Source: Halosimplex salinum
Lineage (GTDB): Archaea > Halobacteriota > Halobacteria > Halobacteriales > Haloarculaceae
Assembly: GCF_003730195.1 (NCBI RefSeq)
Contig: NZ_QWGG01000006.1
Coordinates: 62,001 to 126,000, forward strand
Direction: 5' to 3'
Length of the DNA: 64,000 nucleotides
Positions 56,798-58,909 of the stretch are shown in pieces. Made by a program: the position numbers and the translations under genes. The notes beneath the pieces are model-generated. The model was not told the origin of the DNA. It worked only from the letters and a program-made list of their open reading frames with translations, and searched no databases. Position 1 is the stretch's first letter. Each line of letters begins with the position of its first letter.

Positions 56798-57583
56798 TCA
56801 CACCGGCAGAGCCGACTCGTCGATCCCGTCGCGGCGGCCGTCTAACACGGCGAAGCGCTCCCCTCGACGGCGTTCCAGCCACCGGAGCAGTCGCTCGGCC
56901 CAGACGAGTTTCCGGGCTTTCATCCGGTCCACGTCGGGGTCGTCGAAGTCCCAGCCGGCGAAGACCAGCTCGCTCGCGCCGCAGTGGTCGGCGAGGAACG
57001 CCGCGCGGTCGCCGTCGGTGAACCCGCCGGTGTTGAACACGGCATCGACCGGCGCGGCCTGCGTCGTCGGCAGTACCCACTCGACGCGCAGTCGCGGAAC
57101 CCGCTCGCGCAACGCCGGCTGGTTGTCCCCGTGGGCGTGGACGGCCACGGGCGTCCCGGCTTCGGTCAACTCGCGGGCCACGTCGCTCTCCTCGTCCAGA
57201 TCCGTCACCATGCAGTCCACGGACAGCCCGGCGTCGCGGAGCCGCGTCGCCGCGTCCGACGCCGCCACGACGCCGTCGGCGCGCTCCACTCGATCGAGTT
57301 CGGCGTCGAGCGACGGCCCGGCACCGGCGACCGCGACCGTCTCGCCGTCGAAGTCGACGTCGGCCGGCGCGAGCGTCCGCGGGCCCCTGTCCTCACCCGC
57401 TGGGTCGCTCTCGTCCGGAGCGTCTGACGCACGCGCGCCGTCGGTCGCGCCGCTGTCACCCGCGATATCACTGTCGCTCACGAGGCCGGCGAGCAGGTCG
57501 CGGGCCCGTTCGTCGGCGGCGCGGTCGAATCCCATATCGGCCAGTATCGCCGCGTAGACGGGCTCCCAGTCGTGAAATTCCAT
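56798..57583 (-). CDS. mptE: 6-hydroxymethyl-7,8-dihydropterin pyrophosphokinase (MptE-like)
   Basis: This 261-aa DUF115-type enzyme makes the pterin diphosphate used by dihydropteroate synthase for tetrahydrofolate, replacing FolK in archaea. Motifs: VAVAGAGPSLDAEL, CMVTDLDEES, VAVHAHGDNQPAL, FNTGGFTDGDRAAF, FAGWDFDDP. An acidic insert (about 38-68) is inside the N-terminal part. The ATG at 57583 fits a TATA box 29 bp away. Its substrate partner folP is the next gene upstream on the same strand. Confidence 0.9.
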   Translation of the reverse strand: MEFHDWEPVYAAILADMGFDRAADERARDLLAGLVSDSDIAGDSGATDGARASDAPDESDPAGEDRGPRTLAPADVDFDGETVAVAGAGPSLDAELDRVERADGVVAASDAATRLRDAGLSVDCMVTDLDEESDVARELTEAGTPVAVHAHGDNQPALRERVPRLRVEWVLPTTQAAPVDAVFNTGGFTDGDRAAFLADHCGASELVFAGWDFDDPDVDRMKARKLVWAERLLRWLERRRGERFAVLDGRRDGIDESALPV

Positions 57584-57606
57584 AGCTATCGCTACGACGA
57601 TAGCCT

Positions 57607-57619
57607 CACAATAAACCGG
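57607..57619 (-). promoter_or_regulatory. Proximal TATA box of mptE
   Basis: CCGGTTTATTGTG on the minus strand is centred 29 bp before the mptE ATG, implying a leaderless mRNA. Confidence 0.55.
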
Positions 57620-57698
57620 ATTAGCCGAAATGGCACGTACAAGGTACCCCTACCCAGGTGCCCTTTCGGCCTTCACCCCCTCGTTTTGGCGCATCCGG
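57616..57698 (-). ncRNA. Strong hairpin between folP and mptE (small RNA, leader or terminator candidate)
   Basis: Arms GCCGAAATGGCAC (57624-57636) and GTGCCCTTTCGGC (57658-57670) pair at 12 of 13 positions around a 21-nt loop containing GTAC/GTAC. An outer CCGGAT / ATCCGG pair (57616-57621, 57693-57698) encloses it. On the minus strand a TATA-like CTTATACC (57704-57697) lies about 30 bp before the hairpin, so a short transcript could begin right at it. No coding character. The function is open: terminator of folP, leader of mptE, or independent RNA. Confidence 0.4.
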
Positions 57699-57709
57699 TA
57701 TAAGTTTTC

Positions 57710-58909
57710 TCACCTATCAGCGGACCCACCGCCCGGCAGCGTCCCCGCGAGCGGACGTGGAACGTCGGTTCTGTCCGCCAGCGCCGCCAGCGAACTGGCG
57801 GATCCGCATAAAAACCCCCGTCCGCCGTCCGGGCCGGCGACGAACCGGCAGCCCGCCGCGTTCGCGGCCGTTCGGAGGCGTTCCCGGGCCGTCTCGTCGA
57901 GTCCCTCGACCGCGTAGACGCGACTCACAGCGGCGCCGGGGTCGGCATCCGTCACGCCCGCGCGTTCGAAGTGGCGGGCCGCCTCGTCCGGCGTGGTCAC
58001 GTCGAGTTCCTCGACGGTGAGTCCGTCACCGTCGCCGCTCCGACCGCGTTCGCGCGTGAACGCCTCGCCAACGAGCGCGGCGTCGACCGTCTCGGCCACG
58101 TCGTGCGTCCGGATCACGTGTGCGCCGCGCTCGACGGCCATCGACGTGGCCGCCAGACTCACCGGCAGCGCCCCCTCCGTCGACCGGTCGGCGATCGTTC
58201 GCAGGAAGTTCTTCCGGTTGATCGAGACGAGCATCGGCCGGTCGAGACCGCGGAACTCCCGCAGGCGACGGAACGTCTCGCGGTCGTCCTCGATGGTCTG
58301 GTCCTCCGCCCAGCCGCCGAAGGCGGGGTCGACGATGGTCTTGTCCGTCAGGCCGTTCTGCTTCAGCGCCTCGTACACCTGGTCGACGTAGTCGGCGCTC
58401 TCGGCCCACTCAGCCGAGCGACGTTCGGCCCACGGCGTCGCCCGCACGGCGCCGGGTTTCGTCAGATCCGGCGGGCTCGCCATCTTCGCGACGGCGACGT
58501 CGTAGTCGCGACACACCTCGGGCATCTCCGGGTCGGCGAAGCCGGCGATGTCGTTGACCATGTCGAATCCGCGGTCGAGCGCCGCCTCGGCGACCTCGGC
58601 GTAGCGCGTCTCGATGCTCCACACCGCGTCGCCGGAGGTGGAGTGGAGCGTCTCGACGGCCGTGTCCAGCCGTTCGAGTTCCTCCTCGGCCGAGAGTACG
58701 TCGAAGCGTTTGTTCGCGGACTCCAGGCCGACGTCGACGATGTCGGCCCCTTCGTCGATCAACTCGTCGTCGACGTACGCCGCGGCGTCGCCGGGGTCGT
58801 CGAAGACGCTCGGGTCGTAGGGCGACTCCTTGCTGACGTTGAGGACGCCCATGATGCGCGGCGGGTGGTCGTCCCCGATCCCCAGCCCCGCGGCGTCGAC
58901 GTTCTGCAT
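57710..58909 (-). CDS. folP: Dihydropteroate synthase with C-terminal extension
   Basis: DHPS joins pterin diphosphate with p-aminobenzoate for folate. The 399-aa protein keeps MGVLNVSKESPYDP (family MGILNVTPDSF), IVDVGLESANKRF, VNDIAGFADPEM, SINRKNFLRTI and IRTHDVAETVDAALVG. The last ~110 residues (about 290-399) form a domain beyond the DHPS barrel (family about 280 aa), of unknown type, with an acidic link. ATG at 58909. Confidence 0.88.
   Translation of the reverse strand: MQNVDAAGLGIGDDHPPRIMGVLNVSKESPYDPSVFDDPGDAAAYVDDELIDEGADIVDVGLESANKRFDVLSAEEELERLDTAVETLHSTSGDAVWSIETRYAEVAEAALDRGFDMVNDIAGFADPEMPEVCRDYDVAVAKMASPPDLTKPGAVRATPWAERRSAEWAESADYVDQVYEALKQNGLTDKTIVDPAFGGWAEDQTIEDDRETFRRLREFRGLDRPMLVSINRKNFLRTIADRSTEGALPVSLAATSMAVERGAHVIRTHDVAETVDAALVGEAFTRERGRSGDGDGLTVEELDVTTPDEAARHFERAGVTDADPGAAVSRVYAVEGLDETARERLRTAANAAGCRFVAGPDGGRGFLCGSASSLAALADRTDVPRPLAGTLPGGGSADR

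Follow-up and report, generated by a model that had tools for sequence, protein, structure and literature searches.

The 126-bp intergenic gap between folP and mptE, both on the minus strand of the 64,000-nucleotide stretch of Halosimplex salinum DNA analyzed here (the window), holds a hairpin, and the question raised by this locus is what that hairpin does. An earlier note on this DNA had proposed a free small RNA, a terminator or antiterminator, or a structured leader controlling pterin/folate genes. Of these options the free small RNA is the best supported, since a promoter-like site stands at a near-fixed spacing, the stem carries compensatory changes, and copies found elsewhere mostly precede genes on the opposite strand. 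We therefore favor, at somewhat better than even chances, the explanation that the interval is the gene of a conserved structured sRNA that probably acts in trans through its tip. Transcription would proceed on the minus strand from the RNA's own promoter, starting at ~57676 and ending in an AU-rich stretch at ~57610 (Table 1). We infer this transcription in Halosimplex salinum, and both RNA ends, from the spacing of the TATA box, the hairpin, the AU-rich end and the covariance matches.

Table 1. Features of the folP-mptE interval and its flanking genes (window coordinates).
Feature	Position	Strand	Basis or remark
folP, dihydropteroate synthase	57710-58909	-	TIGR01496, E 3e-50, above curated cut-off
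Predicted sRNA promoter GAAAACTTATACC, BRE-like stretch and TATA box	57697-57709	-	Directly after folP stop; sequence
TATA-like site CTTATACC	57704-57697	-	Sequence
Predicted sRNA of ~67 nt, GUGAAGGCC...UUUAUU, both ends predicted	57610-57676	-	TATA spacing, hairpin, AU-rich end, covariance matches
Stem 5' arm GGCCGAAAGGGCAC	57658-57671	-	Paired changes in 57 sequences
21-nt loop	57657-57637	-	Sequence
Near-invariant tip GGGTAGGGGTAC, predicted short stem with GGGG loop	57644-57655	-	Common to copies with unrelated stems; fold
Stem 3' arm GTGCCATTTCGGCT	57623-57636	-	A opposite G is the single mismatch
AU-rich tail GTTTATT (TTTATT at 57615-57610)	57610-57616	-	Predicted RNA end, possibly also mptE TATA box
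AGCGATAGC, resembles AGYGRCR word recurring downstream of hairpin in relatives	57585-57593	-	
mptE, 6-hydroxymethylpterin diphosphokinase-like	56798-57583	-	PF01973, E 1.4e-18

The hairpin and its tip

The hairpin was confirmed, and the minus strand gives its best reading. The stem of 12 pairs out of 13 and the 21-nt loop that had been described in the gap were recovered as such, with one G-A mismatch between the arms, and the loop can itself fold into another short stem capped by GGGG, as seen in the fold of the window and in other copies that were folded. Compared with shuffled sequences, the 103-nt interval scores z -3.55 on the plus strand and z -2.87 on the minus strand, and positions 57678-57611 of the minus strand reach -29.8 kcal/mol against -20.7 (sd 3.2) in shuffles (z -2.84), with 3 of 200 shuffles equally good. 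In a MAFFT alignment of relatives (A1), 93.6% of cells are paired and 6 of 15 pairs show double-sided changes, while versions in which the pairing was slid reach 24-43%. A larger alignment (A3), in which 57 matches were aligned to a covariance model so that it is fitted to the structure and leans towards it, has 92.9% of cells paired (34-45% when slid) and 116 doubly changed cells against 25.6 (sd 4.2) in shuffles; A3, the model R2 and the count of pairs over 57 sequences include one locus (L261) later judged a chance match. Covariation analysis had been suggested in the earlier note, with a lack of compensatory stem changes in relatives taken to speak against its proposal. The opposite is seen, as all 15 modelled pairs of A3 are doubly changed. 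The stem would be a scaffold that tolerates changes of its sequence.

Pair types give modest support for the minus strand, with 45 G-U against 18 A-C cells in A3, which is itself fitted to that strand, and 6 against 5 in A1. The stronger argument for this reading is the TATA box on the minus side. An outer CCGGAT/ATCCGG pair, also claimed for the hairpin, was dropped as unconserved: it is complete in 2 of 18 distinct aligned sequences, and one of its arms lies upstream of the predicted start. No consistent pairing between tip and tail that would form a pseudoknot was seen when the alignments were inspected by eye.

In contrast to the stem, the tip barely varies, reading GGGYAGGGGYA in A1, and in folded copies it usually forms the short stem with the GGGG loop. 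The window copy has T rather than C before the GGG of the tip and therefore fails to match the exact 13-mer word CGGGTAGGGGTAC used in searches below. In many relatives the RNA begins with an RTG, and ~8 codons later a stop falls within the tip, which could suggest a leader peptide; this is not favored since several relatives shift or lose the frame.

Promoter, tail and distribution

The TATA-like sequence that had been noticed on the minus strand directly after folP, at the spacing expected for a start at the hairpin, was confirmed (Table 1), and its distance from the hairpin is near-fixed among relatives. Using a permissive TATA pattern, we found such a site in 227 of 228 loci, 42-49 nt ahead of the tip and in 146 of the 227 at exactly 44 nt. 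The loci do not represent independent genomes, since their origins overlap, and 118 of them came from a search pattern requiring a TATA box and 30 from a DNA query containing one. The other 80 were found or confirmed with the covariance model R1, whose first position lies past the TATA box, and 79 of these have the TATA-like site.

At the other end of the predicted RNA, 76 of 98 distinct copies of the mptE type have one of the words TTAT, TATT or TTTCAT at 25-60 nt downstream of the tip start, and none of the 98 has one at a control distance of 150-185 nt. The corresponding counts are 25 of 31 and 1 of 31 for a second class of copies (class B, described below); because the control stretch is often coding, and such sequence has little A and T, the contrast is somewhat overstated. 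Class B lies away from mptE, which makes the AU-rich word more likely an RNA end than only the TATA box of mptE; the tail looks like a trait shared by the whole RNA family, not by mptE alone. The second TATA box assigned to a leaderless mptE (TTTATT) may be the tail of the RNA, possibly doing double duty. A further word, AGYGRCR, also recurs downstream of the tip, at a distance of 28-90 nt: 44 of 98 mptE-type copies have it there, against 7 of 98 in the control, and for class B the counts are 16 of 31 against 1 of 31. The corresponding word of the window, AGCGATAGC, has T where the pattern has C.

The hairpin is conserved throughout the class. A DNA similarity search recovered the region in 50 of 97 genomes, its own genome counted, and R1, built from 22 sequences, matches 346 of 391 Halobacteria genomes, covering 73 of 86 genera; a single match is the rule, and 5 of the 346 have a second one. 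Matches in a sample of the phylum (72 of 392 genomes) all fall within the same order. For samples of more than 40 genomes the filters were stricter and may have lost weak matches, and the E-values of the models are rough. In Rfam 15, the window gave two chance-level matches, both outside the hairpin, and five loci with extra copies plus one Haloferax mptE-type locus gave none up to E 0.5. The letters of the tip were absent from the literature searched, where no title or abstract opening describes such an RNA family. Spread by viruses or plasmids was considered and rejected, as the exact class B core occurs in no stretch of the viral contigs searched and the class B and mptE-type queries each gave one plasmid record.

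Copies away from mptE

Hairpins with the same tip also occur away from mptE. A second copy in the genome of the window (contig C28, 147017-147085, minus strand, 28.8 bits; L257) has its own TATA box, a different stem and the same tip, and further extra copies were found in other genomes (L258-L260, L278-L279, L280-L288, L291-L293). On visual inspection, other candidates were not accepted as copies (L261, L263, L277, L264-L269, L289, L290, L294). The stem of class B copies resembles GGUGGACAG/CUGUCCACC, and their promoter resembles CCACAAAGCATATTCC. Their model, R3, has matches in 33 of 391 genomes, which represent 13 of 86 genera; a genome carries up to 3 copies, and part of the matches were inspected. 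No mptE match was found in any of 30 R3 loci (L298-L327). For 28 class B copies, a simple GC-frame rule was used to call the closest gene downstream; it gave a gene on the opposite strand for 20, one on the same strand for 7 and no gene for 1. These 28 leave out the R3 match L325, which has no tip word near it, the class B loci L304 and L305, and one of two copies at L284. Those two copies (G194, contig C1) lie ~1.3 kb apart in the same orientation, which suggests a local duplication.

The unrelated stems joined to one common tip make a shared partner probable. We propose that the locus would be one member of a trans-acting family of haloarchaeal sRNAs, in which the tip CGGGUA-GGGG-UAC (with U for the first C in the window copy) would be recognized by a conserved partner, either protein or RNA. 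Genomes that lack the RNA bear on this. Searching the 24 genomes that lack an R1 match with the model R2 (E up to 0.05) gave a single weak match (G053, E 0.011), and none of them contains the exact word CGGGTAGGGGTAC. The 5 comparison genomes contain it 10 times: 9 of these sites are hairpin copies, and the tenth (L336), which is not a copy, lies in a coding frame resembling a nitrate reductase subunit. A reversed control word has 3 matches over all 29 genomes. The word is an incomplete test because some real copies differ from it, including the copy in the window and, in G006, the one of the mptE type. The mptE-type and other copies thus appear to be absent together in these 24 genomes, which come from few lineages; joint absence would be a hint of a shared partner, with the extra copies patchy anyway.

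Competing explanations and comparison with known RNAs

The main alternative is a cis-acting 5' leader of mptE, in which the tip would bind a protein, possibly MptE, or a small molecule such as a pterin and thereby alter translation or termination. We regard it as a serious rival, though a less likely one. In its favor, mptE lies directly downstream on the same strand in all of 80 loci (L001-L080) and, as called by script, in 222 of 227 in the larger set containing them, a near-constancy that the gene of a trans-acting RNA need not show. Of the five exceptions, L235 has mptE on inspection, L178 is cut at the locus end, and L184, L185 and L250 have other neighbors. (L184, from Haloprofundus marisrubri, is an 8-kb locus with no mptE match; its hairpin has a TATA box and the same tip, and is perhaps a copy on a mobile region.) In some loci that keep the hairpin and mptE, folP is undetected upstream. 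The 24 genomes with no or a weak R1 match all have an mptE-like match, and by eye, in the 260 nt upstream of it, the start of mptE in 16 touches or overlaps the end of folP, with no gap and no hairpin, as expected if the hairpin serves mptE. Among the remaining 8 loci, a diverged hairpin is present in 5, 2 (L086, L102) show neither arrangement and 1 reads N (L104). In four f17 genomes and in L118, the hairpin is only about 13-17 nt from the mptE start, so that it may there lie in the mptE leader. Several extra copies likewise have a same-strand gene about 80-430 nt behind them, and in four genomes of the window's genus (L285, L291, L292/L298, L293) a class B copy stands ~137-170 nt before a 3-dehydroquinate synthase II gene, a family assignment checked for L285; this gene and mptE may both feed folate synthesis. 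Most of these observations count against a trans-acting sRNA. On the other side, the leader explanation does not account well for copies that share the tip, the tail and the layout of the promoter yet mostly precede a gene on the opposite strand, for a spacing between hairpin and mptE that ranges from about 47 to 205 nt across loci, or for an AU-rich tail that goes with the RNA family. For the structured leader envisaged in the earlier note, and for a riboswitch in particular, a position next to mptE would be expected and is almost always seen, but copies away from mptE exist.

A terminator or insulator against read-through from folP, with no RNA product of its own, appears improbable. The hairpin and AU-rich stretch do come soon after the folP stop, but termination needs no invariant tip, the TATA-like site stands at near-fixed spacing ahead of the hairpin, the hairpin is kept where no upstream folP was detected, and similar copies lie between unrelated genes. 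The terminator or antiterminator once suggested is weakly supported: an AU-rich stretch does come after the hairpin, but such a stretch is found behind copies distant from mptE as well and so looks like the RNA's own end. Still less probable, to the point of being hardly credible, is a DNA-level element, that is, a hairpin-forming or protein-binding site in the mptE promoter without function as RNA; its position between two TATA-like sites would suit it, but the paired changes throughout the stem in 57 sequences do not, nor does the modest excess of G-U over A-C on the minus strand in the fitted alignment A3.

The preferred sRNA can be extended, tentatively and with less confidence than the sRNA itself, to an undescribed RNA system spanning the class, in which RNAs with unrelated stems, several of them per genome in some species, would present one tip (CGGGUA-GGGG-UAC) to one dedicated RNA-binding partner, RNAs and partner being gained and lost together. 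The folP-mptE copy would be ancestral and class B and the others later copies, perhaps decoys or guides of the partner. If the tip is a protein-binding signal carried by RNAs with unrelated stems, the logic would resemble that of bacterial protein-binding small RNAs such as CsrB and 6S, which belong to another domain of life, and the haloarchaeal RNA differs in having one tip each. The window sRNA would be a good handle on a general small-RNA partner in Halobacteria, and the pattern of presence and absence offers a direct route to that partner through genome comparison.

Known classes of archaeal guide RNAs do not fit. H/ACA guide RNAs are likewise short hairpin RNAs with a mismatch in the stem, but the window RNA has an invariant tip and lacks both a pseudouridylation pocket, its stem showing only a 1x1 G-A mismatch and no pocket between two stems, and a conserved ANA box, the positions after the stem varying in A1 (AAT, ACT, TATA, CAC, CAA). 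Box C/D RNAs carry a C box, RUGAUGA, and a D box, CUGA, and neither occurs within the predicted RNA.

Among published haloarchaeal RNAs, HVO_2908s is probably the H. volcanii orthologue of the window RNA, an identity that rests on gene order. HVO_2908s is an intergenic sRNA found in vesicles of Haloferax volcanii (PMC10927574). Given that phr2 is HVO_2911 (PMC8305020) and that the order in H. mucosum is folP, hairpin, mptE, one gene, photolyase, DJ-1/PfpI and SOD, folP should be HVO_2908 and HVO_2908s this RNA. A high-identity sRNA enriched in vesicles of Halobacterium salinarum (PMC10927574) fits the class-wide conservation seen here; the available text of that report gives no structure, family, invariant tip, paralogues or function for HVO_2908s. 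Another published name, hts359 (HVO_2520s), was dropped, HVO_2519 being a hypothetical protein and HVO_2519_T a tRNA-Met. The H. volcanii RNAs s194 and IG1.7 are likewise intergenic small RNAs (97 and 74 nt) but lie at other loci, sRNA194 being HVO_2011s2 and IG1.7 overlapping htsf242, HVO_1933s (PMC6104027). According to the available text of PMC3956466, s194 has no homologue in other haloarchaea and 22 of 27 tested Haloferax small RNAs are restricted to that species. An sRNA present in 346 of 391 sampled haloarchaea with a free stem and a fixed tip is the opposite of these species-confined RNAs (PMC3956466).

An antisense role of the tip against rRNA was set aside, as no clear complement was found against shuffles. 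The 23S stretch (L297) and the 16S gene of L295 did no better than shuffles, and a 12 of 13 match to the tip with G-U in the 16S gene of L296 was equalled by 3 of 40 shuffles. The exact complement of the 12-mer tip occurs four times in this genome, two of these being the hairpin genes themselves, and this search pointed to no mRNA target. The genome carries two 16S rRNA genes, on contigs C21 and C23 (loci L295 and L296), with 95.3% identity over 1476 aligned columns.
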